Shown here in pieces: positions 10,509-64,000 of a DNA stretch of 64,000 nucleotides (position 1 is the first letter of the stretch; each line of letters begins with the position of its first letter). The position numbers were made by a program, and so were the translations under genes. Source of the stretch: Paraburkholderia phytofirmans OLGA172. Its GTDB lineage: Bacteria; Pseudomonadota; Gammaproteobacteria; Burkholderiales; Burkholderiaceae. The notes beneath the pieces were generated by a model. It was not told the DNA's origin, did not search any database, and was given only the letters and a program-made list of their open reading frames with translations. The stretch spans positions 1,364,001-1,428,000 of the forward strand of contig NZ_CP014579.1 of NCBI RefSeq assembly GCF_001634365.1. Reading direction: 5' to 3'.

Positions 10509-12544
<2,036 letters not shown>

Positions 12545-14425: not shown

Positions 14426-14570
14426 GCCGTGGATCTTTACTATTCTTGCCAGACAGCGTGAGCAGGTGTACGGCAAGTAGCGAGCCAACACCGGTTTTGC
14501 TTTCGATGCGTCCCCCAGCAGGCGATTGCTTGCGCTCGGGCATCCGTCTAATCTACCTCGCATCAAGCCC
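14426..14570 (-). pseudogene. Relic of an AraC-type regulator gene
   Basis: In the minus frame starting at 14543, MPERKQSPAGG and IESKTGVGSLLAVHLLTLS closely match the middle of the AraC protein encoded at 4357-5319 (LPERKQPPAGG, IESRTGVGSLLAVHLLALS). The similarity continues a few codons upstream in another frame (LMRGRL versus VMRERL). It then stops on both sides, so only about 120-145 bases of a gene of about 960 bases remain. Confidence 0.75.
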
Positions 14571-14627
14571 AGCTGTCGGTAGGATTTTCCCAGAAACCAG
14601 CTTTGCATCCAGGTGTATGTTGCTGCC

Positions 14628-15479
14628 TTAATTCAGAAGGTCAGGCGCCCATCGTTTCGCAAGCGCCCGATACTCGCCTTGGAACAGGTCCTTCCAGGCG
14701 CGCAGCAGTATGAAAGCCGCCAGTCTGTGCGGCACAGGAACACCGAAGCGTTCGTTGAGTACATCATGGATTTCATCCTGATGTACGCGAAGGAACGGGT
14801 TGACGATCAGTTCGTGTCCGATGGTTGTCGGTAGCGTCGGCCGTCCCGCCAGACGCAGCGCTGCTGCCTTTTCCTGCCAGAGCCTGATGCTCTCATTGCC
14901 GGGCTCACATAGTCGCGCGAATTCGAGGTTGGAGAGCGTGTATTCATGGGCGCAATGCAGAAGCGTGGACGGAGGCAAAGTCGCCAGTTCGTCCAAAGAC
15001 TCGAGCATCTCTTCCGCCGAGCCTTCGAGCAGCCGGCCGCATCCACTGGCGAACAGGGTATCGCCGGCGAACAGGTGCCCGGGATTGTCATTGACTCCTG
15101 GCTGGAAAAAGACGATATGCCCATGTGTATGCCCGGGTGTCGCGATTACTGTTGCGCGGAACGACGGTTCCGTGACTTCAACCTCGAAGCCTTCGCCCAC
15201 ACAACATGTGACGCATTCGATACGCTCCCGCGCGGGCCCATAAATCGGCGTGTCAGGCTTTCCGCACGAACGCAGCAAAGCCCGAACGCCTCCGACGTGG
15301 TCGTCGTGATGATGAGTCAGTAGCACGGCCGTGACGGTCAAGCCTCGAGACCCGCAGAACCGCTCGACGGGCTCCGCCGCACCGGGGTCGACGACAATCG
15401 CGTGCGCGCCGTCCGAAATCACCCACGCGTAGTTGTTGTCAAAAAAAGGAACCGGGGTGTATTCGAGGCTAGTTGCCAT
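14628..15479 (-). CDS. gloB: Hydroxyacylglutathione hydrolase (glyoxalase II)
   Basis: 283-residue metallo-beta-lactamase-fold enzyme that hydrolyses lactoylglutathione to lactate and glutathione, the step after GloA. The two-metal signature THHHDDHVGG is at 55-64 (His56, His58, Asp60, His61). Further ligands are in TPGHTHGHIVFF, LFAGDTLF and LHCAHEYTLSN, the last also in the glutathione-binding region. The ATG at 15479 gives the family start; the frame is open upstream to 15572. It belongs functionally with the glyoxalase I gene at 5421-5816. Confidence 0.93.
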   Translation of the reverse strand: MATSLEYTPVPFFDNNYAWVISDGAHAIVVDPGAAEPVERFCGSRGLTVTAVLLTHHHDDHVGGVRALLRSCGKPDTPIYGPARERIECVTCCVGEGFEVEVTEPSFRATVIATPGHTHGHIVFFQPGVNDNPGHLFAGDTLFASGCGRLLEGSAEEMLESLDELATLPPSTLLHCAHEYTLSNLEFARLCEPGNESIRLWQEKAAALRLAGRPTLPTTIGHELIVNPFLRVHQDEIHDVLNERFGVPVPHRLAAFILLRAWKDLFQGEYRALAKRWAPDLLN

Positions 15480-15875
15480 GCTGCCTGGACAGGCGTCGCG
15501 GATAGATTGACCGCGTGCACCCATTCTGTGGAGTCGGGGACGTTTTAAACTTACAACCCAATGGGCACCCACGATTGACTCTCAGCGCATGACGCGTTGA
15601 CGCGTCGTGCAAAGCTGGGAGCGGAATCGTGCCCTTATCTCGTCCCGTACGCCGAGGCGATATGCATGGCGTCGGATACCGGCGGCGGTTTGCACGCTGC
15701 GGACCGAAGTACGGCCGTTTTACGGTGCTATCCGGGCGCGAGCGACATTTTCGCGTACCAACCGCTGCATGATCAGTTCGACACCGGACATTGCGCCAGC
15801 CGACCTCCCTTCACAAGCCGTGCGTCATGTTGGCCTCATTTCTCGAAGCGAGGTGGGCGAGCGGCAGTAGCGACG
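15480..15875. other. Intergenic region between LysR and gloB genes
   Basis: Both flanking genes read leftward. The gloB promoter should lie at the left end. I see no credible gene or clear terminator. Confidence 0.5.
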
Positions 15876-16826
15876 TCAGCGCGGGGCCGTTGTCATCGAC
15901 GCCGTCAACGACTTTTTTTCCGTGGACGCAAGCGCGGATTGATCGAAGATTTCCGCTATCCACTCGACGAAGACTCGAACTTTGGGGGCAAGGTGCCGGT
16001 TGTGTGGGTATACGGCGGATAACGACATGGAGCGGGACTTCCACGGTTTCAGGATTTCCGTAAGCTCGCCGGAGGCCAGGTGCGACACGATCATGAAGAG
16101 AGGTGGCTGGATTATGCCTGCTCCGTGGAGTCCGCACATTACGTAGGCATCGGCGTCATTGACAGAGAGGCCACCGCCCATCTTGATCTCGGCGCTTTTG
16201 CCATGCACTTCGAAGTTCAGTTCGGTAGTGCGGCCAGTACGACTCGAGAAGTACTGTACTGCGATGTGTTGCTGCAGTTCTTCCAGCGAATGTGGCTCGC
16301 CATACCGCGCGAGATAAGACGGGCTCGCAGCAGTTACCGTGGAGAGCGCGCCCAGCCGCCTCGCAACAAGGCTGGAATCTTCCAGCTTGCCCACCCGGAT
16401 AGCGCAGTCCACGCCTTCCTGAATCAGATCCACGGGACGGTCACCAAACCCGATCATGAGATCGACGTGAGGGTACCGGTGTCTGAACTCTTCAATGCGG
16501 GGCATCACCACGATACGACCGAGTGAGCTCGGCATGTCGATTCTCAGTTTTCCGCGGGGGCCTTTGCCTGCGTTGGCAAGACTGTGCTCTGTCTCGTCAA
16601 CATCAGCGAGGATACGCACGCAGCCTTCGTAGTACTCCGCGCCCTCGGGAGTGAGGTTAAGCCGGCGAGTGGTCCGTTGCATCAGGCGCACTTGCAGGTA
16701 AGCCTCCAGGTTCTTGATGATGGTGGTTGCCGACGCATGTGGGAGTTGCAATGCATCTGCCGCACGGGAGAAACTGTTCATCTCCACGACCTTGGTGAAG
16801 ACCTTCATAGCCAGGAGCTTGTCCAT
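15876..16826 (-). CDS. LysR family transcriptional regulator
   Basis: 316 residues: an N-terminal winged helix (MDKLLAMKVFTKVVEMNSFS, then RAADALQLPHASATTIIKNLE) and a two-lobed effector domain (about 90-300) with GFGDRPVDLIQEGVDCAIRVG. The ATG at 16826 is preferred over one at 16853 because it gives the conserved MDKLxAM start. It belongs to the same subgroup as the LysR at 44230-45264 (GFGDKPVDLIQEAVDCAIKLG). No divergent partner gene is present on its right, where over 600 bases are empty, so its target is unknown. Confidence 0.92.
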   Translation of the reverse strand: MDKLLAMKVFTKVVEMNSFSRAADALQLPHASATTIIKNLEAYLQVRLMQRTTRRLNLTPEGAEYYEGCVRILADVDETEHSLANAGKGPRGKLRIDMPSSLGRIVVMPRIEEFRHRYPHVDLMIGFGDRPVDLIQEGVDCAIRVGKLEDSSLVARRLGALSTVTAASPSYLARYGEPHSLEELQQHIAVQYFSSRTGRTTELNFEVHGKSAEIKMGGGLSVNDADAYVMCGLHGAGIIQPPLFMIVSHLASGELTEILKPWKSRSMSLSAVYPHNRHLAPKVRVFVEWIAEIFDQSALASTEKKSLTASMTTAPR

Positions 16827-17462
16827 ATTCCCTTGCCTCACGCTTAGCGACATACCCCCGGGAAATCAAGCGGGGACGCGGTTGATATTTCTGCGATCGT
16901 CAATATCCAGCTCATCTAATTGCCGTTTCTTCGACGGTTTGCCCATTGTTTTAAATCTAAATATCGGCACCCTATAGGTCCCGCGGGGCGAATAAACCGA
17001 GCTATCAAAAATACTCTATTTGCTTGCTTGGAACAATCAGATTAACGGTGATTGGTTCGTGGGCATCGGTGTGAGTTTGAGCAATGTGCACGCTTTCGCC
17101 AGCCAGTTGCTCGATGGAACAGCGCTTGCCGGTGAATGATCTGGCGGCTGAGTGCCTGGTGCAAGCGAGCGCTTCGCGCGCTATGTTCATACACTTCGAA
17201 CCGTCTGACACGCCAAACGACAATCTGCCTGATTAACCCAAGTTTTCGTCAGGCCAACACTCTCACCAATAGTGTTTCGTCCGACGAAATGCCGGACCAT
17301 GCAACCGCCTATGACGGTGGCGTTGCTAGCACTGCTGCTTAGTCCTGGCGTAACGATGTGCGAAAGGGCAGTTATTAATCGCTTTCAAATCAGATTATGA
17401 GAATAATTGAGCGTATCCAGTGTCGATTGTTCATCGATCGGGGCGGCCAGTCGATCACACGG
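16827..17462. other. Intergenic region of about 640 bases
   Basis: It probably contains the LysR promoter at its left end. Small frames here have no ribosome site or family resemblance. The right part is more AT-rich than the surrounding genes. Confidence 0.45.
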
Positions 17463-17801
17463 TCACTGTGACGGAACGACCTCTGAGAGGTAGGCGAAGC
17501 GAAGCTCGGCCGAGACAGCGTTCAACAGCTTCTCTGCCAGACTCCCGTCGGACGTTCCTCGTGCAAGCAGTGATGCACCCACAAGTGCAGCGAGAATTGC
17601 AGTTGCCTTACTGGCGCGCCGGGCGATGTTGCTTTCGCCCATGGACGAGAAATGGTTGTAGAAACCGCCAACTGTGATGCCGACTTCCTCCATTATTTCG
17701 GAGATGCTGACGCCTTGGATTCCCCGTTCGCGAAACCGTTTGGCGGCTACTTCGAGGATACGCTCGTGGGTCCGTAACTTATCTGACTGAGAATGTCCCA
17801 T
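17463..17801 (-). pseudogene. TetR regulator with an internal deletion
   Basis: The 112-residue frame begins like a complete TetR protein: THERILEVAAKRFRERG, then the helix-turn-helix ISEIMEEVGITVGGFYNHF. After HFSSMGESN it jumps directly to sequence that normally lies near the C-terminus (ALVGASLLARGTSDGSLAEKLLNAV). Related regulators have about 190 residues, so some 80-90 residues of the ligand-binding domain are missing, with the junction near 17630-17640. The frame is still open, so a short DNA-binding protein could be made, but it should lack ligand control. I treat it as a pseudogene. Confidence 0.7.
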
Positions 17802-17983
17802 GATAGCGATGTCGTCCCGTAGGCATAAATCTGAATGATGATTGTACGCCAGATTTTTGTTGAACTGTCATCGGCAGGAAACAACACCGTGTTATCGGAA
17901 ATTGAATGGAGTACTATAAGAATTCGTGTGAAATGAAAATTGCATGGCTGTTCATGACGGTCGCGAATGGAGACGGTTTTGCG

Positions 17984-18118
17984 ATGAAGTCAGAAAATGT
18001 AACCGTCACGATTGTGATTGGCGGTGTCGCCTTTTCTCGCACCGTAGAGAAGCCCGATCCCGAACTGCCCGGCGAGATTCTTTCTTCCGTATGCGAATTT
18101 TCCGTCAGCAATGCATGA
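17984..18118 (+). CDS. Possible small hypothetical protein upstream of the SIR2 gene
   Basis: A 44-residue frame (MKSENVTVTIVIGG to CEFSVSNA) with GGAG about 11 bases before the ATG. In-frame starts exist further up to 17906. No family is recognised. Its composition is plausible for a small beta-rich protein, but the evidence is thin. It lies about 200 bases before the SIR2-like gene on the same strand and could be co-transcribed. Confidence 0.25.
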   Translation: MKSENVTVTIVIGGVAFSRTVEKPDPELPGEILSSVCEFSVSNA

Positions 18119-18316
18119 GCGTGAGACGCTGTCCAGCGCACGACAACCCGAACTCAGCGCGATCTCATTGGCGCAAGAACGGGGCGTAGGGTGGGGCACG
18201 GTGCACGCGATGTGCGCGGATGCGGAAACTTATACAATGGGTTCAGGCTTGCCAGAGGGAACTGGCGAACCCGTCCAGGATAGTAAGAAGCGGTTTCTAT
18301 TTCTTTCGGAGGGGAG

Positions 18317-19285
18317 ATGGCTTGTTCGGTATTGCTCGGCGCAGGGTTCACGCGTAATTGGGGTGGCTGGCTTGGGTCGGAGGTTTTCGAATATTTGCTC
18401 GGATGTCCCGAGGTTAGATCGTCACCAGCTATCAAGGAGTTGCTTTGGCGCTTCAACGAAGTCGGCGGATATGAATCTGCCTTGGCGGAGCTGCAGGGTA
18501 GGGCGAGGCTCGATCCCGAAAGACACTCCGCCGATTTGCGAAGCCTCGAGACGGCAATTCGAGCGATGTCCAGGACGATGGACCATTGCATATCCCGCCT
18601 TGAAAATTTTGATCTCGGTCTCGGGAACAGGTCAGTGCGCAAATTCCTGAGCCGGTTCGATGCAATCTTTACCCTGAACCAGGATCTCCTTCTGGAATAT
18701 CAGTATCTCCAGCGGTGGGATGGGGTCGAGCTACCAGGGATGCGATTGTCATCGAACGGGGGCTCTGGTCCGTGCGGAATCCCTTGGACGGACCAGTGGG
18801 TTCCTGCGAGTGAAAACGAATTTCGCGTCACTGCGAATCGACAGCCGTGTTTCAAGCTACACGGGTCTTGGAATTGGGTTGACAGCGTAGGCGGCTCGCT
18901 GCTTATCACAGGGGGCGAGAACGCTCGCGCGCTTGGTCTTCCTCCCATTCTCGACTGGTATCACCGGCAATTCGCGCACTATGCATCTCAGCCTAACCAT
19001 CGACTTATGACCATTGGCTACGGCTTCCGTGACATTTATATTAATGATGTAATCGCGAAGGCAGTGGCTGAAAACGGATTGCAGCTTTACGTCATGGCGC
19101 CGGAGGGTTCGGACGTTGCCGCGAATGCGCCATTGTCGTCCGGCGATGGACGCGGGGGGCGGGCCGTCGTCGAGAATGCATTCCGTCACGGACTCATAGG
19201 AGCGTCGCGCCGGCCGCTAAACGAAATCTTTGGGGAACGCGAAACGCTCGAACTAAAGAAAGTCTTGCGATTCCTCGACGGCTAG
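18317..19285 (+). CDS. Stand-alone SIR2-like protein (putative NAD-consuming defence protein)
   Basis: 322 residues made almost wholly of a SIR2-like Rossmann domain of the type found in bacterial anti-phage proteins. Motifs in order: GAGFTRNWGG at 8-17 (NAD-binding loop), FTLNQD at 118-123 with the Asn and Asp of the active site, LHGSWNW at 181-187 with the catalytic His182, and IGYGFRDIYIND at 233-244. There is no zinc-binding CxxC pair as in true deacetylase sirtuins, so NAD hydrolysis rather than deacetylation is more likely. GGAGGGGAG precedes the ATG at 18317. No partner gene (TIR, Argonaute, HerA) is adjacent, so it would act alone. A defence role is inference from the family. Confidence 0.82.
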   Translation: MACSVLLGAGFTRNWGGWLGSEVFEYLLGCPEVRSSPAIKELLWRFNEVGGYESALAELQGRARLDPERHSADLRSLETAIRAMSRTMDHCISRLENFDLGLGNRSVRKFLSRFDAIFTLNQDLLLEYQYLQRWDGVELPGMRLSSNGGSGPCGIPWTDQWVPASENEFRVTANRQPCFKLHGSWNWVDSVGGSLLITGGENARALGLPPILDWYHRQFAHYASQPNHRLMTIGYGFRDIYINDVIAKAVAENGLQLYVMAPEGSDVAANAPLSSGDGRGGRAVVENAFRHGLIGASRRPLNEIFGERETLELKKVLRFLDG

Positions 19286-19356
19286 CTGTCCTCTAGCGCC
19301 CGATCGGACATGTCTCAGCCGCTGCACTCGTATGCCGAGGCGGCTAACGTTAGAGG

Positions 19357-19384
19357 AAGGCATCGTTAAGCATGACGATGCCTT
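19357..19384. terminator. Hairpin downstream of the SIR2-like gene
   Basis: AAGGCATCGT and ACGATGCCTT are perfect 10-base arms around eight bases, about 70 bases after the stop codon. There is no T-run, so it is either a factor-dependent or RNA-stabilising hairpin rather than a classical intrinsic terminator. Confidence 0.5.
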
Positions 19385-20003
19385 GTCCTTCAGCATGCGC
19401 GCGACTCGTCATCGTAGGCGTGCACGCAACGTGTCATCGGAACCATGATCCCCCTACGTAGAAGATCGTGATAACAGCATGAAAAGTTGTTCCAATACTT
19501 ATTTATAAAAACATAGTAATGCTATGTAATTGAAGCTGATGGTGAAGTGAAACCAGAGCCGGAGGGACGCCAGGCGTATCGCTTTGGGCGCGTTGCCAGG
19601 AGGATTGGGAGCACTGTTCACGCGCAGACCCGGGCGAAGGGCGCTGCCGCGGCGACAGTCAGCATACGGCTGATGTCGAACTGAAAACCGAGGCGGCTGA
19701 CCGGTACGATCGCACGTATATCAGGGCATGTCGGTCGGGTCATGCAGGCACGCAGTGCGAAGCCTCAGGGCAACCCTTACGTCTACGACAACAATCTCTT
19801 GCACCTCGTTTGCTTGAGAACGAACCCGATGCGCGCATATCATGCCGGGGTCGTCCTTTGCTCCACCATGCGGCGGCGCCATCTGCGAAGCCGCAGGCGC
19901 AACGAGTCATGGCGGGTGATACTTGCAGAATCAACCGACGGTGGTTGTCCAGATTTTCAAGGGTGTTTGTTTGGAAGGTCTTCTAGAGGTGCTGGGTCAT
20001 GCC

Positions 20004-54902: not shown

Positions 54903-55349
54903 TCAGTGCTCGTTGCAGACAATGGCGGTGGCGACGAGCGGGACGACCTCCCGAACGATAGCGTCGCTGCCCGCCTCACGCACGCGTGCTTCCACCTGAT
55001 CCGTGGGGCCGGCTACTACCACACCATATAGCGACCCTGCCAGGGTGTCACCGCCGCCCTGTCTGAACATGGCATCGTTGTGTTCATACCCGACGACGGC
55101 GTGGACGGGAAAGCCGAATGCCGTCAGGTCGCTGCCTCGCTCCGGTCGGAATGCGTTGACTGAGTTTGCTTCAATATGCGTTGGCTCCGGGGTGATATCG
55201 TCGTCGTTGATGAGCCCGGTTATGAATGTGTGCGCGTTCGAATTACATGTGAACTGCGGATCGAGCGGGTGCGCGTACGACTGGATCGAATGGAGCGCCA
55301 TACTCAGTGCGTAGAGCGTGGCTAGTGTATTGAGAAGGCGTTTTTTCAT
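54903..55349 (-). CDS. Small secreted hypothetical protein
   Basis: 148 residues. The first 26 form a signal peptide (MKKRLLNTLATLYALSMALH, likely cleaved after SYA), so the product is periplasmic or secreted. The mature part has two cysteines, in QFTCNSNAHTF and at the C-terminus (IVCNEH), that could form a disulfide. No domain is recognised. It converges on the CoA-transferase gene with 27 bases between stops. Confidence 0.75.
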   Translation of the reverse strand: MKKRLLNTLATLYALSMALHSIQSYAHPLDPQFTCNSNAHTFITGLINDDDITPEPTHIEANSVNAFRPERGSDLTAFGFPVHAVVGYEHNDAMFRQGGGDTLAGSLYGVVVAGPTDQVEARVREAGSDAIVREVVPLVATAIVCNEH

Positions 55350-58283: not shown

Positions 58284-58335
58284 GGCATAAGGGCAGGGTA
58301 GGTGGCCCATCTGAAACTTGATGATTCGGAACGAA

Positions 58336-59697
58336 ATGACCATGTCCACAAACACGTCGGCATTCGATGCTGCGCTTAAGGTTCATCGTTGGCTCGAAAC
58401 GCAGAAACGCATCCATACAACGGGCATCAACTGGCCGGCCCATGGCACTCTTCCGCCCGAAGAGCAGCTCAACGTTTACTACGGGGGGGCAGGCGTTGCC
58501 TTATTTTACTTAGGCCTGTACCAGCAGACGAAAGTTGACGCGTATCTCGCACTTGCCAGACAAGCGGCCGATTATCTTGTTGCGAATCTTCCAGCCAAAC
58601 TGGATACGCAACGGCGGCACGAAAGTTCGTACAGCAACCTCAGGGTCGACGATCAGCCCGGATTGTATTTCGGGATTGGCGGAGTTGGTGTGCTCCTGTC
58701 GCAACTACAGGCAATACCTGGACATGCCCGCTATGGTGAGGGCGCAAGAAGAGTCGCAAAACTGATTGTTGATGCGGCGCAGGAGAGTGGTGCTGGAGTC
58801 GCGTGGAGCGACGTTCGGGACATTACTACCGGAAGCGCAGGCATTGGGATCACCCTTCTGGCCTTGTCCAGATGCATGGATTTTCCCGTAACGAGAGAAC
58901 TCGCCATAGCCAGTGGGCGTCGCTTGCTGGAACTCGCGATTCCGGATGGCGGTGGGTTGCGCTGGGAATGGGAGGAAAGGGAGCGACTTGTGCACCCCAA
59001 CTTTGCGCACGGCGCGGCGGGGACTGGCTACTTCCTCCTCACGCTGTATCAGGAGACAGGCGACAAAGCGTTCCTCGACGCCGCGCTCGCTGGGGCAGCT
59101 TACCTCCATAGCGTTGCTCGCCATGACGGTCTTATCTGCCATTCGCTGAATTGCACGCCGGACCTCTTTTATCTTGGCTGGTGCCACGGCCCAGTTGGAA
59201 CCGGTCGCTTCTACTATCGTTTGTGGCAAACGCAGGGCGATGCCGTCTGGCTGGAACGGCTATTCCAACTCGCGGAAGCAGTTGTCGGCACAGGGATTCC
59301 CGATGCCGCGACAGACGGGCTTTGGAACAATGTCGGCATATGCTGTGGCTCCGCGGGCGTCGCCGAATTTTTTCTGGATCTGTATGTACTGGCGAGGGGG
59401 CTTTGCCGCAGCGATGCACCGTCTTATCTGGCTTTCGCCCAGCGCCTGGTCGACAACATCCTTGAGCGCGGAATCGATGACGATGATGGCCTGCGGTGGA
59501 CGCAGGCCGAGCATCGCACGTTACCGGAATTACTTACCACGCAAACAGGCTACATGCAGGGAGCCGCGGGTGTTGGGTCAGTCCTCATTTACTTTGACGC
59601 ATTGAACCGTGCATCGACTATCGACGAGATTGACGCATGTGCGATGCAACGCCTGCGTTTGCCTGATTCTCCCGTGTTCCGCGCCGTGTCGCATTGA
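58336..59697 (+). CDS. LanC-like protein with a Cys-Cys-Gly zinc motif
   Basis: 453 residues from the ATG at 58336 (ATGs at 58321 and 58342 are alternatives; GGAA lies just upstream). Seven Gly-rich motifs spaced along the chain predict the alpha/alpha toroid of LanC cyclases: YYGGAGVALFYL (about 48), FGIGGVGVLL (112), TGSAGIGITLL (165), NFAHGAAGTGYFL (222), GWCHGPVGTGRFYY (281), GICCGSAGVAEFF (334) and GYMQGAAGVG (405). Zinc ligands would be Cys283, Cys336 and Cys337; most LanC proteins have His at the last position (CHG), while CCG gives a three-thiolate site as in some class II enzymes. No LanB/LanM dehydratase or certain precursor peptide is nearby, so it may be a LanC-like enzyme of other function. 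It heads an operon with an SDR and an ABC importer. Confidence 0.88.
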   Translation: MTMSTNTSAFDAALKVHRWLETQKRIHTTGINWPAHGTLPPEEQLNVYYGGAGVALFYLGLYQQTKVDAYLALARQAADYLVANLPAKLDTQRRHESSYSNLRVDDQPGLYFGIGGVGVLLSQLQAIPGHARYGEGARRVAKLIVDAAQESGAGVAWSDVRDITTGSAGIGITLLALSRCMDFPVTRELAIASGRRLLELAIPDGGGLRWEWEERERLVHPNFAHGAAGTGYFLLTLYQETGDKAFLDAALAGAAYLHSVARHDGLICHSLNCTPDLFYLGWCHGPVGTGRFYYRLWQTQGDAVWLERLFQLAEAVVGTGIPDAATDGLWNNVGICCGSAGVAEFFLDLYVLARGLCRSDAPSYLAFAQRLVDNILERGIDDDDGLRWTQAEHRTLPELLTTQTGYMQGAAGVGSVLIYFDALNRASTIDEIDACAMQRLRLPDSPVFRAVSH

Positions 59698-59746
59698 ATT
59701 GGTCTGCCATTTTCGTACGACGTTTCGCTAATTTGGGGACCATCTG

Positions 59747-60661
59747 ATGAGAGTATTCCTGACAGGTGCTACCGGTTACATGGGCCGGGTAGTTCTGGAA
59801 AAGTTGCTGGATAGCGGCATTGATGTCCTTGCTTTAGCGCGACCCTCTAGCCGGTCGGCTATGCCCACACGTCCTGGTTTGGCGTGGGCGCAAGGTACGC
59901 TCGACGATGCAGACGCGATCGGGAAGGCAGTCCGCCAGACCGATGCGGCTATGCACATGGCGGCTCAACACGATTTTCATATGCAGAAGCTCGATTGGGC
60001 CGCGATCACGGCTATCGGGCAGGCGCTGGAAGGAACCGGTAAGCCGTTTATCGCAACCAGCGCGACGCCGGTATATGGACACACCGGCGACGAGCCGCGC
60101 GATGAGCATGAGCCTGTCGAGCACCCTCATCCGTTACGCACATTTCGTCTGCAACACGACCGGTTCGTAATTGGCCTGAGGGAGCGCGATGTCAGGGGCG
60201 TAGTCGTGCGTCCGCCATTGGTCTACGGGCGCTCGGGCGGTTTCCTTGTCACCTTGATCAATCAGGCAATCGAGGACCGAACCGCCCGTACGATCGGGAA
60301 TGGGACTAACCGCTGGTCGACAGTCGACGTGGACGATCTTGCCGACCTCTATGTTCGCGCCTTGCTTGCTGAAGATGCTTACGGCGCATTTAACGCGGGC
60401 TCGAGAGATGTAGTCAGCATGAAGGTTATTGCCGAAACGATCGCTCAGTCGTTCGGGCCAAAGATACCGGTCGGATCGTGGACAGAGCAGGAAGCCTGTG
60501 CACGACTGGGAGAGTTGATGGCATTAATGTCCCTCGATCAGCACGTTTCGTCCGAGCGCGCCCGGAGCGAACTTGGGTGGAATCCGCGCGCGACTACCTT
60601 AATCGAGGATCTGTCACATGGTTCTTATCGGCTTGCTCCTCTGGTTCCTTACAGTCATTGA
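59747..60661 (+). CDS. NAD-dependent epimerase/dehydratase family protein (atypical extended SDR)
   Basis: 304 residues. The Rossmann loop GATGYMG is at 7-13, HMAAQHD near 70, SATPVYG near 107, VVRPPLVYG near 157 and the C-terminal block SERARSELGWNPR near 275. The usual catalytic Tyr-x3-Lys is not evident where expected (the region reads RTFRLQHDRFVIGL), so it is an atypical SDR that may bind NAD(P) without normal epimerase chemistry. GGGGA lies seven bases before the ATG. It stands 49 bases after the LanC-like gene and three bases before the ABC ATPase gene, so these are translationally coupled. Confidence 0.9.
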   Translation: MRVFLTGATGYMGRVVLEKLLDSGIDVLALARPSSRSAMPTRPGLAWAQGTLDDADAIGKAVRQTDAAMHMAAQHDFHMQKLDWAAITAIGQALEGTGKPFIATSATPVYGHTGDEPRDEHEPVEHPHPLRTFRLQHDRFVIGLRERDVRGVVVRPPLVYGRSGGFLVTLINQAIEDRTARTIGNGTNRWSTVDVDDLADLYVRALLAEDAYGAFNAGSRDVVSMKVIAETIAQSFGPKIPVGSWTEQEACARLGELMALMSLDQHVSSERARSELGWNPRATTLIEDLSHGSYRLAPLVPYSH

Positions 60662-60664
60662 CCT

Positions 60665-61939
60665 ATGAACTCGATCAGTAAAGATTTGCCGCTCAGCGAT
60701 ACCGATGAGCGCAGCGCATGTCCGGCGACAAACGGATCTCGTCGAGCCGGGATTCTCGGGCTCATCAGTCGCACTCGACGTTCGAGTACCGACATTGACG
60801 CTGCAAAGCCGACACAGGCCTCGCAGCCCGACGCGGGCGGGCAACGAATTGTGCTCGGCTCCGAGATTCTGCTGGATCGTGTCTCCAAGCATTTCTCCAA
60901 TAAAACGGTCCTCGACGAAATCAGCCTGAAACTGGATTCCGGATCGTTCTTCGCTTTGCTGGGCCCAAGCGGATCCGGCAAAAGTACCTTGCTGAACCTG
61001 ATCGCCGGTTTTGAGCGACCGGATAGTGGCGATATCCGAATTCGCGGGCGTAGCGTGGTTGGCGTTCCCGCTTACGCGCGGCAGGTCGGGGTCGTTTTCC
61101 AGAGTTATGCCCTGTTTCCGCACCTCAACGTGGCGGAAAACCTCGCCTATCCGCTTCGACGCCAGGGTATCCGGAGCCGTGCCATCCACGCCCGGGTCAA
61201 CCGGATGCTTGAACTGGTTCGGTTGGGCGGATATGCCGATATGCGCATCACCCAGCTTTCCGGCGGGCAACAGCAGCGGGTGGCGCTGGCGCGAGCCCTC
61301 GTTGCGGAGCCGGACGTGCTGCTGATGGACGAGCCTATGGCCGCACTGGACAAATCCCTGCGCGATGACCTGCAAGTGGAAATCAAGCAGCTCCAGCAAT
61401 CGCTCGGCGCGACGATCATCTACATCACTCATGATCAGCGGGAAGCATTAGCGCTAGCGGATCAGATCGGTGTACTCAATGAGGGGCGGTTCGAGCAGGT
61501 CGGGGACGCGGTCAGTATCTACGCAAGGCCCGCGTCGGCGTTCGTTGCGCGGTTTCTAACAGGGGCAAGCGTACTTAATGGTCGCGCAGGTGGATCGGCG
61601 GCCGACGGATGGTATCTCGAAGACGAAAACGGAGCACGTTTGCCGGGGCAGTGGCATGACCGCACGCCGAGCTCACCGGGCGCCAAAGCCGAGATGGCAA
61701 TCAATCCCGCTCTGGTGAAGATTACAGCGTCGGGCGCGCACCCAATGGGCTGGAGCATCGACGCCCGCGTGGCGGCCGTATTGTACGTCGGAGAAAGCAC
61801 GATTGTGCATCTGACTTTGCAAGGCGGAAGCACGCTAGTCGCCCGTGAGCCGGGTGCCAGTGGGCGCTCAGTCGGTGAGCCGGTTCGAGTTGGCTGGCGG
61901 CCGGAAGATGCATTTTTGTTCGAAGTGCTACATAAATAG
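60665..61939 (+). CDS. ABC transporter ATP-binding protein (PotA-like)
   Basis: 424 residues. Walker A GPSGSGKST at 100-108, Q-loop Gln146, signature LSGGQQQR at 198-205, Walker B VLLMDEP at 218-224, H-loop in YITHDQREA, then a C-terminal TOBE-like regulatory domain (about 305-420). This is the CUT1/PotA architecture that energises uptake of polyamines, iron, or small organic solutes. The first 65 residues form a Ser/Arg-rich extension not usual in PotA. It starts three bases after the SDR stop and nine bases before the solute-binding-protein gene, so all are one operon. Confidence 0.94.
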   Translation: MNSISKDLPLSDTDERSACPATNGSRRAGILGLISRTRRSSTDIDAAKPTQASQPDAGGQRIVLGSEILLDRVSKHFSNKTVLDEISLKLDSGSFFALLGPSGSGKSTLLNLIAGFERPDSGDIRIRGRSVVGVPAYARQVGVVFQSYALFPHLNVAENLAYPLRRQGIRSRAIHARVNRMLELVRLGGYADMRITQLSGGQQQRVALARALVAEPDVLLMDEPMAALDKSLRDDLQVEIKQLQQSLGATIIYITHDQREALALADQIGVLNEGRFEQVGDAVSIYARPASAFVARFLTGASVLNGRAGGSAADGWYLEDENGARLPGQWHDRTPSSPGAKAEMAINPALVKITASGAHPMGWSIDARVAAVLYVGESTIVHLTLQGGSTLVAREPGASGRSVGEPVRVGWRPEDAFLFEVLHK

Positions 61940-61948
61940 GGGGGCGAC

Positions 61949-63052
61949 ATGAAATCCAGTTCAAAGCATCAAGGTCTTACGCGTAGAGATATCCTGAAGG
62001 GTGGTGCCGCAGCATTGGCCAGCGCTGTGCTACCCATGTCGTCATGGGCCGCCGCCGGCTCGGTGACCATCACCGACGGAGGTGGAGCGTGGGGCGCCGC
62101 GCAGCGCAAGGCATATTTCGAACCGTTCGAAAAGGAAACGGGTATTCGTGTAGACCTCGTGCCCTATGCGCTTCCGGGCAAGCTGAAAGCGAGCGTGCTC
62201 GCGGGTTCTCCCGTTGCCGACGTAGTCGACCTGACGGGAGCGAAGCTGCCGGAATTCAGCCGCAGCAATCTGCTTCTGCCGATAGACTTTAAGGCATTCG
62301 ATCCGCAGGACCTGGCGGCGCTAAAACCGGTGCCGGCCCACCCGTATGGCGTTCCGTCCTTATTCGGATCGATCGTTCTCGCCTACGCAGACAGTGTTGC
62401 GAAGTCTCGCGCGCCCGCCACATGGAAGGACTTCTGGGATTCGAAGTTGTTCGTCGGCCAGCGCACGCTCGCCGACGGAGGCGCTTTCCCCGGCGGGGGT
62501 ACCTTTGAGATTGCATTAATGGCGGATGGCGTGACTCACGACAAAATCTATCCGATCGACTGGAAACGTGCGTTCAAGAGTTTGGACCGGATCAAACCGG
62601 ACATGGCCAGATTCTGGTCAGGTATGGCCGAACCTGTGCAGATGCTGGTGGACGGTAACGCCACCATCGCCAGCGCCTACAACGGGCGCGTTAGCGACAT
62701 GCAGGCTAAGGGTGCAAAGATCGCATTTAGCTGGAGGGATGGCATTCTCAGTTGGGATCACTGGGTTGTCCCGAAGGGCTCCGCCAACGCGGCAAACGCC
62801 ATGAAATTTATTGCTTTCGCGACTCGGGCAGATCGCCAGGCTGAGTTCGCCACTTTGATTAACTATGGGCCGACGAACAGCCGCGCGTTTGCCCACATGA
62901 CGCCCGAGCGGATTAGTCAGATGCCTTCGGCGCCAGCCGTTCGGGACTTGCAACTGGCCACAAATTACGAGTGGTGGGCAGCCGAGGCGTCACCTGGCGT
63001 CAGCAATGAAACGCTCGCGACGCAGCTTTGGGAAAAGTGGTTGCAAAGCTGA
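61949..63052 (+). CDS. Extracellular solute-binding protein (PotD-like), Tat-exported
   Basis: 367 residues. The N-terminus TRRDILKGG followed by a hydrophobic stretch and ASA is a twin-arginine signal, so it is folded before export. The mature protein has the spermidine/putrescine-type periplasmic fold, with EPFEKETGIRVDLVPY, ADVVDLTGAKLPEF, WKDFWDSKLFVGQR and DHWVVPKGSANAANAMKFI. The polyamine-binding Asp/Glu/Trp set cannot be confirmed by eye, so the ligand is open. GGGG is five bases before the ATG. It works with the ATPase before it and the permease after it. Confidence 0.94.
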   Translation: MKSSSKHQGLTRRDILKGGAAALASAVLPMSSWAAAGSVTITDGGGAWGAAQRKAYFEPFEKETGIRVDLVPYALPGKLKASVLAGSPVADVVDLTGAKLPEFSRSNLLLPIDFKAFDPQDLAALKPVPAHPYGVPSLFGSIVLAYADSVAKSRAPATWKDFWDSKLFVGQRTLADGGAFPGGGTFEIALMADGVTHDKIYPIDWKRAFKSLDRIKPDMARFWSGMAEPVQMLVDGNATIASAYNGRVSDMQAKGAKIAFSWRDGILSWDHWVVPKGSANAANAMKFIAFATRADRQAEFATLINYGPTNSRAFAHMTPERISQMPSAPAVRDLQLATNYEWWAAEASPGVSNETLATQLWEKWLQS

Positions 63053-63085
63053 TCGTTACATGGCCGGTCAACAGGAGAAGAGTTC

Positions 63086-64000
63086 GTGAATCACCAGTCA
63101 ACGATGCAACACCCGGCGTTAGAGAAAACCTTGTCCCGCCTGTTTCCGGCGGGACGCCCCTATATGCTGCTGCTTCCGGCCGCATTATTGGTGACAGTGT
63201 TTCTGTGGATTCCCGTCGCCGGGACATTGCTCGATAGCGTGCACTCTTCTGCAGGCTGGTCGCTGCGCGCTTACGAAGAGCTGTTGGGCGGCGCCTTCAG
63301 GCATATCTTTTTCTCCACGGTCGTCAATAGCGTTTGGGTGACGCTTGGGTGCTTATGCCTTGGTGTGCCAACGTCGTATTGTATGGCGCGAATCAACCGG
63401 CCTTGGCTGCTCACACTTACGGTGCTCGCAGTCACTGGACCGTTTTTCGTTAGCGCGCTGATACGAAGCTACTCATGGGTGGTCGTGCTTGGAAACAACG
63501 GCCTGGTGAACGGGGCACTGTTGAGTTTGCACCTGATCGACCAGCCGGTACGGCTTGCCTATACCCATCTGGGTATGATTGTCGCGATGGTGCAGGTCGA
63601 GCTCCCGCTTTTTATCCTGCCGGCCTACAGCGTGATGCGTCGTGTTCCCCCGGACCTGAGGCGCTCGGCTCAGAGTCTTGGCAGCGACCCGGTTACGGCC
63701 TTCCTCACAGTCTTTCTACCTTTAGCCGCGCCAGGCGTGATTGCGGGTTGTGCGCTTGTATTCATGACCTCTCTCGGTTTCTACGAAACGCCAGCCTTGC
63801 TTGGGCCGCCGGGGACGTATTTCCTCAGTCAGGCGATCGAGGTCCGTGTGAACAGTCTCGCAGACCAATCGGGTGCCGCCGCCCATGCTGTTGTGCTACT
63901 CGTGCTGGTAGGAGGGCTTACCTCTGCGTGCATGTCGCCGTTGCTCCTGGCGTTGAGTTCGACGTCGGCGCAGCAGTCGGCAAGCCCGTCGTCCGGATTG
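63086..64000 (+). CDS. ABC transporter permease (PotB-like), 3' end outside window
   Basis: The frame from the GTG at 63086 (AGGAG about nine bases upstream) stays open to the window end, 305 codons. It shows about six membrane helices, starting MLLLPAALLVTVFLWIPVAG, and the EAA-loop motif contacting the ATPase: PDLRRSAQSLGSDPVTAF then TVFLPLAAPGVIAG near residues 190-222. The domain looks complete near residue 290 yet no stop follows, so the gene either ends just outside or continues as a fused second permease half. It completes the PotABC(D)-like importer of the LanC-like operon. Confidence 0.9.
   Translation, partial: MNHQSTMQHPALEKTLSRLFPAGRPYMLLLPAALLVTVFLWIPVAGTLLDSVHSSAGWSLRAYEELLGGAFRHIFFSTVVNSVWVTLGCLCLGVPTSYCMARINRPWLLTLTVLAVTGPFFVSALIRSYSWVVVLGNNGLVNGALLSLHLIDQPVRLAYTHLGMIVAMVQVELPLFILPAYSVMRRVPPDLRRSAQSLGSDPVTAFLTVFLPLAAPGVIAGCALVFMTSLGFYETPALLGPPGTYFLSQAIEVRVNSLADQSGAAAHAVVLLVLVGGLTSACMSPLLLALSSTSAQQSASPSSGL

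Follow-up and report, generated by a model that had tools for sequence, protein, structure and literature searches.

A stand-alone LanC-like gene adjoins an atypical SDR gene and a predicted GABA/opine-type importer in Paraburkholderia phytofirmans OLGA172

Human LanCL1 and LanCL2 add glutathione to Michael acceptors, and class IV cyclases (LanL) such as CuvL carry kinase and lyase domains. For LanC, the account available to us in part gives two histidines and one cysteine as zinc ligands. Stand-alone LanC-like proteins as such are already known: the accessible part of one survey leaves 3,052 of 12,705 LanC-like proteins unclassified, 1,279 of these being probably other enzymes (PMC7268733).

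Here we describe a stand-alone member of the LanC-like family (PF05147) encoded in P. phytofirmans OLGA172 (genome of 8.57 Mb), within a window of 64,000 nucleotides (positions 1364001-1428000), the whole stretch of DNA that was analysed. Five same-strand genes (Table 1) follow each other with intergenic spacings of 49, 3, 9 and 33 bases, an arrangement put forward in an earlier sequence-only reading and directly observed in the ORF coordinates and Pfam domains. That reading also listed a permease, and the gene is there, although it corresponds to one PotB/PotC-like fusion running past the window, with a first half scoring as PotB/PotH and a second half scoring as PotC/PotI. The LanC-like gene has further in-frame starts at 58318 and 58321, and the existence of three homologues at 86-94% identity indicates that it is a real gene and not a chance frame. 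On the 3' side of the permease gene lie an IS630 transposase gene on the opposite strand, then genes for a porin, an AraC-type regulator and an oxidation/hydrolase group. GC content per kb ranges from 54 to 65% across 20 kb, without a sharp step in base composition; Rfam at gathering score returned zero RNA-element matches in 10 kb of the region, and promoter and terminator scans gave site counts not above those in shuffles. We tentatively read the five genes as a narrow operon importing and converting or disarming one compound, with a cytoplasmic LanC-like zinc enzyme among its catalysts, a reading that we consider plausible if still short of probable.

Table 1. Genes of the locus, in window coordinates
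Feature	Length (aa)	Position	Strand	Basis
LanC-like protein	453	58336..59697	+	ORF and Pfam LANC_like
Atypical extended SDR	304	59747..60661	+	ORF and Pfam Epimerase
ABC importer ATPase with TOBE_2 domain	424	60665..61939	+	Pfam ABC_tran and TOBE_2
Solute-binding protein, twin-Arg start LTRRDILKGG	367	61949..63052	+	Pfam SBP_bac_8
Fused permease	595	63086..64873 (window covers only to 64000)	+	Pfam BPD_transp_1

The LanC-like protein matches Pfam LANC_like with an E-value of 3.1e-34 (118.6 bits against a cut-off of 23.2) and has neither the kinase nor the lyase domain of class IV cyclases. All seven G-x-x-G toroid motifs claimed from the sequence can be located in the translation (at 50, 113, 166, 226, 285, 338 and 409), as can the three-cysteine WC...CC site, whose zinc-ligand candidates are C283 (in WCHG) and C336 and C337 (in CCG), three cysteines against the two histidines and one cysteine of LanC. 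H225 occupies the catalytic-acid position and H284 the enolate-side position; C283, C336, C337 and H225 align with LanCL1, in which we take the residues matching the cysteines to be zinc ligands. The zinc-site cysteines and both catalytic-site histidines are invariant in 121 aligned sequences and are shared with the stand-alone family. The predicted structure, a step proposed along with the original description, has a LanC-type fold; the model shows an alpha,alpha-toroid with putative zinc-site residues and a catalytic histidine.

In a Foldseek search with this model, ranks 1-5 are taken by LanCL2, GCR2 and LanCL1. Together with the W-C-H-G motif, which is that of eukaryotic LanCL, this would fit a LanCL-like thiol transferase serving protection, i.e., one that places a small thiol onto a reactive Michael acceptor, imported or internal. 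The enolate-side residue points the same way, H284 being a histidine as in LanCL, and the corresponding position is predominantly tyrosine in bacterial LanC and histidine, lysine or asparagine in LanM, according to the accessible text of PMC9934072, which also names the glutathione-binding residues of LanCL. However, the position of LanCL1 H323 is occupied by C337, and the region corresponding to the glutathione contacts has its own invariant residues (E392, R394, Q403 and Q408). The glutathione contacts R364, D367 and E374 of LanCL have no evident counterparts, a weak point made by eye, as the alignment is too short and stops before them. We therefore regard such a protective transferase as unlikely.

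The combination of a toroid with three cysteines, two of them adjacent, also recalls the GH127/GH146 arabinofuranosidases, and among the best 120 of 1,927 relatives many carry precomputed calls of PF07944, which we take to be the GH127 family, or of other alpha/alpha-barrel families. A zinc-thiolate glycosidase-like enzyme, whose substrate could be a sugar conjugate, would be in line with the zinc-coordinated cysteine used by GH127/146 enzymes, as given in the available portion of PMC10728902. Yet at E 1e-3 in Pfam LANC_like is the sole match of the LanC-like protein, and LanC-type structures rank over glycosidases in the structural comparison (best 50 rows, from which GH127 is absent, an absence that excludes nothing); a glycosidase of this kind appears quite improbable.

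A lanthipeptide cluster is disfavoured. The LANC_like profile finds a single match in the genome, the stand-alone gene itself, and no LanM, LanKC or LanL, i.e., LANC_like fused to a dehydratase, is found genome-wide, which bears out the absence of LanM asserted in the sequence-only reading. On LanB, for which it made the same statement, PF04738 gives no match in the genome, in a search whose control genomes were likewise without a match and which thus had no positive control. The absence of a protease and a peptide exporter is supported, and the search for a dehydratase to the right of the window, which had been suggested, returned none: neither a dehydratase nor a peptide protease or exporter occurs, by NCBIfam alone, among eight ORFs taken as genes over 9 kb beyond the permease gene, antisense ORFs excluded. 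Reading by eye the small ORFs that flank the operon brought up no convincing precursor peptide. The share of LanC-like proteins left unclassified in the survey sections available (PMC7268733) would leave room for an unrecognised RiPP cluster with its precursor or dehydratase elsewhere in the genome. Against it stand an importer with a binding protein instead of an exporter, the single LANC_like domain of the genome, the uncontrolled lack of a LanB match and the small ORFs beside the operon, and we consider such a cluster very improbable.

The relatives of the LanC-like protein were collected in a protein search in which 7,995 candidates were scored and 1,927 found. Among the best 120 of these, four have 94, 86, 87 and 57% identity to the query and the others at most 47%. 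A scan of genome contigs gave 112 LanC relatives, of which 80 were kept. Most of these 80 belong to Planctomycetota, Acidobacteriota, Aminicenantes, Gemmatimonadota and Bacteroidota, with 33-46% identity in the best segment. At E 1e-5, SDRs, binding proteins and permeases of the operon's kind are absent from all 80 loci, several of which are short contigs of sometimes 3-9 kb, in contrast with their adjoining position here, and some ABC ATPase is present in four. The largest neighbour group comprises 11 loci, 10 of them from Gemmatimonadota, and mostly encodes a protein of ~1,100 aa that is TolB/amidohydrolase-like by eye. The family also differs in its N-terminus: a hydrophobic segment, defined by a simple hydropathy cut-off of 1.6 and not by a signal-peptide predictor, is present in 105 of the 116 further relatives listed (P0005-P0120) and in none of the five sequences formed by the LanC-like protein and its four closest relatives (scores 0.27-1.16). 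With a slightly shorter averaging length, 42 of 72 loci pass (72 of the 80 being those where a simple ORF caller recovered the LanC ORF), and the protein described here scores 0.36. The usual site of the family may thus lie outside the cytoplasm.

Within its own lineage the gene is isolated. At E 1e-20 it is found in one of 144 genus genomes and one of 398 family genomes, in both cases its own, and relaxing the threshold to E 1e-3 in 98 relatives adds two weak matches (27-28% identity). A match to the binding protein at E 1e-60 is present in 11 of the 141 genus genomes searched, the ten besides its own all at 40% identity or less, and in four of 299 phylum genomes, the three others at 38-39%; the SDR is detected in 53 of the 98 relatives at E 1e-20, all but its own copy at 37% identity or less. 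The search for a LanC/SDR/Pot neighbourhood across Burkholderiaceae, proposed at the outset, thus shows that it is not conserved, and a genus- or family-wide neighbourhood is rejected. Given the scarcity or distance of counterparts of LanC, binding protein and SDR, the operon appears to be rare and acquired, and the very few known copies place co-occurrence beyond statistical testing. As to its source, viral and plasmid origins were rejected: viral contigs scanned with the LanC alignment gave eight pattern matches and no relative; eight of 72,556 plasmid records match the LanC-like protein and 38 the SDR, all below 60% identity; and 13 kb of the region matches 11 records at the DNA level, with ~1% coverage each among the matches listed.

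Linkage in public contigs bears on a further possibility, namely that SDR and ABC genes form one unit in front of which the LanC-like gene landed with an unrelated task. Equal base counts were read as the same contig, a reading exposed to chance coincidences such as that of P0004 and P0314, both on 3,887 bases but from different sources. The closest LanC homologue (P0001, 94% identity) lies on an NCBI contig of 136,973 bases. LanC P0002 (86%) and SDR P0122 (85%) have the same source and both lie on 10,027 bases, hence probably on one public contig. An SDR is paired with a binding protein on 4,420 bases (P0123, P0242), on 5,798 bases (P0127, P0244) and on a contig of 1,702,766 bases from Rhizobium sp. 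Rhizsp82 (P0128, P0248), so that these two genes apparently stay linked even at the distance of this strain. No LanC from any of the three contigs is among the best 120 of 1,927 matches; the two short contigs may end before it, whereas the Rhizobium contig is long, although a LanC too diverged to reach the best 120 would be missed. In 148 genomes of one genus, taken as rhizobial on account of RepC matches, neither the SDR (E 1e-50) nor P0249 (E 1e-100) gave a match, in searches both run without a positive control. The Rhizobium pair without a listed LanC suggests that SDR and importer may be an older core, predating the link to LanC, which may then be an add-on or a passenger; the different neighbours of LanC relatives elsewhere agree with the latter. 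On the other hand, LanC and SDR stay together on the apparent single contig of 10,027 bases, and the lack of a hydrophobic N-terminus is as expected for cytoplasmic work on imported material, so that we hold a mere passenger to be somewhat doubtful.

The joint operon that we favour would include an SDR of unusual active site. As had been pointed out from the sequence, the usual Tyr-x3-Lys is missing, its position reading F133-R134-L-Q-H137-D138. In 120 aligned sequences, its own included, position 134 is always arginine, position 133 is tryptophan or phenylalanine in 110 and position 138 is glutamate or aspartate in 119. A W/F-R-x-x-x-E/D pattern thus replaces Tyr-x3-Lys in nearly all aligned homologues, and the alignment indicates that this SDR family has long been without the motif, whose absence is no defect of the present copy. 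The model (pLDDT 95) has the same fold as atypical extended SDRs of the NAD-dependent epimerase/dehydratase family; sugar-nucleotide epimerases and dehydratases match it with TM values of about 0.73-0.80. What sets it apart from atypical SDRs generally is its coupling to an importer and a C-terminal Y-S-H tail, found in nine aligned SDRs at 60% identity or more, its own included.

The importer was originally called PotABCD-like, a label that turns out to be too loose. The binding protein scores 50.1 bits against the PotD model (cut-off 582) and the ATPase 330 against TIGR01187 potA (cut-off 355.6), and a true polyamine transporter is rejected, these curated scores not being reached. The best solved relatives of the binding protein are 4i1d, 4eq7/4euo, 3rpw, the GABA sensors 6dgv and 9d57 and the agropine permease, i.e., they include GABA and agropine binders, and by homology we class it as GABA/opine-type and not PotD. 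Its twin-arginine signal is visible at the start of the protein, with a TAT_signal match of 19.8 bits lying under the cut-off of 22.7. The GABA contacts listed in the accessible text of PMC12999171 are W9, T13, F100, Y102 (F102 before engineering), W202, R205, D228 and Y264, and their aligned counterparts here are G44, W48, L138, G140, Y244, R247, D270 and Y306. Hence R205, D228 and Y264 are kept, W202 is replaced by Y244, and the pocket walls differ (G44, W48, L138, G140); carboxylate and amine grips retained within changed walls suggest, as far as an alignment can, a zwitterion other than GABA.

The importer thus shares its binding-protein subfamily and its Arg, Asp and Tyr ligand grips with GABA/agropine/mannopine-type importers (GABA sensor protein Pf622, 4eq7/4euo, agropine permease). 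Related binding proteins occur in 18 plasmid records at E 1e-60, four of which were examined (Bosea, Variovorax, Mesorhizobium and Paraburkholderia, legume sources); the order ATPase, binding protein, fused permease recurs in one plasmid record (L108). In the three annotated records of the four a gene of an Xaa-Pro peptidase family adjoins the importer, the extra neighbours being genes either for an M20 peptidase plus diaminopropionate ammonia-lyase, or of the glutamine-synthetase family, or for gamma-glutamyl-GABA hydrolase, and the unannotated Variovorax record (L107) has ORFs similar to these by eye. Such neighbours fit amino-compound breakdown, whereas the importer described here has LanC and SDR in place of the peptidase-family enzymes.

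If, as we infer, the five genes act jointly, the exported binding protein would catch a small zwitterion, with R247 holding its carboxylate and D270 its amine, and the fused permease and the ATPase would carry it inward. In the cytoplasm, zinc on C283, C336 and C337 of the LanC-like protein would serve to activate a thiolate, while H225 would donate or accept the proton and H284 would lie on the enolate side. The conserved residues of this protein suggest thia-Michael addition or its reversal: an alpha,beta-unsaturated carbonyl may receive a thiol or, in the backward reaction, a thioether may be split. The SDR may contribute a linked nicotinamide-dependent step or bind a nucleotide-like ligand. 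A thiol conjugate, raised from the outset as a substrate of the LanC-like protein, is possible; no thiol- or thioether-related gene is present in the five-gene operon. The more specific proposal that a LanC-type enzyme has been recruited to small-molecule metabolism, splitting an imported thioether amino acid or capping an imported Michael acceptor by zinc-thiolate chemistry and relying on an importer of its own, seems to us rather unlikely as it stands.

In the literature surveyed, covering titles and the beginnings of abstracts of top-ranked matches, no LanC gene in an ABC-importer operon is described. Many stand-alone LanC-like proteins lack an assigned function. Here, gene order links such a gene to an importer; simple binding screens can find the ligand of that importer, which would provide a handle on the substrates of stand-alone LanC-like proteins. 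If the proposed reading is true, this enzyme type may act on imported molecules instead of peptides; to our knowledge, no LanC function on a transported metabolite, as opposed to a peptide or protein, would have preceded it.

Beyond the operon, as read in L002 (the same genome continued 10 kb past the window end), an IS630-family transposase gene follows directly and is possibly a trace of the operon's arrival, and the genes at 68525-73628, close to the operon, form a group for oxidative degradation. The 148-aa ORF, whose start appears signal-like by eye, had no match in Pfam or NCBIfam at E 1e-3.

Features within the window and beyond the operon
Feature	Window position	L002 position	Strand
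148-aa ORF	54903-55349		-
IS630-family transposase	65168-66235	11168-12235	-
Flavin monooxygenase, MetX-like hydrolase, EthD-family, TetR-type regulator and HsaD-like hydrolase genes	68525-73628	14525-19628	

Among 72 loci of LanC-like relatives, one neighbour gene group lies upstream of the LanC-like gene in 11, ten from Gemmatimonadota and one from Vicinamibacteraceae (L014, L051, L053, L055, L057, L058, L061, L065, L069, L071 and L082), its proteins mostly being ~1,100 aa long and TolB/amidohydrolase-like by eye.

Importers akin to that of the operon are plasmid-borne in legume-associated Bosea, Variovorax, Mesorhizobium and Paraburkholderia (loci L106-L109), where they adjoin Xaa-Pro peptidase-family genes (by eye in L107, from Variovorax) and, varying among loci, genes for M20 peptidase, diaminopropionate ammonia-lyase, glutamine-synthetase-family and gamma-glutamyl-GABA hydrolase proteins. 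These plasmid importers possibly take up plant amino-acid derivatives.
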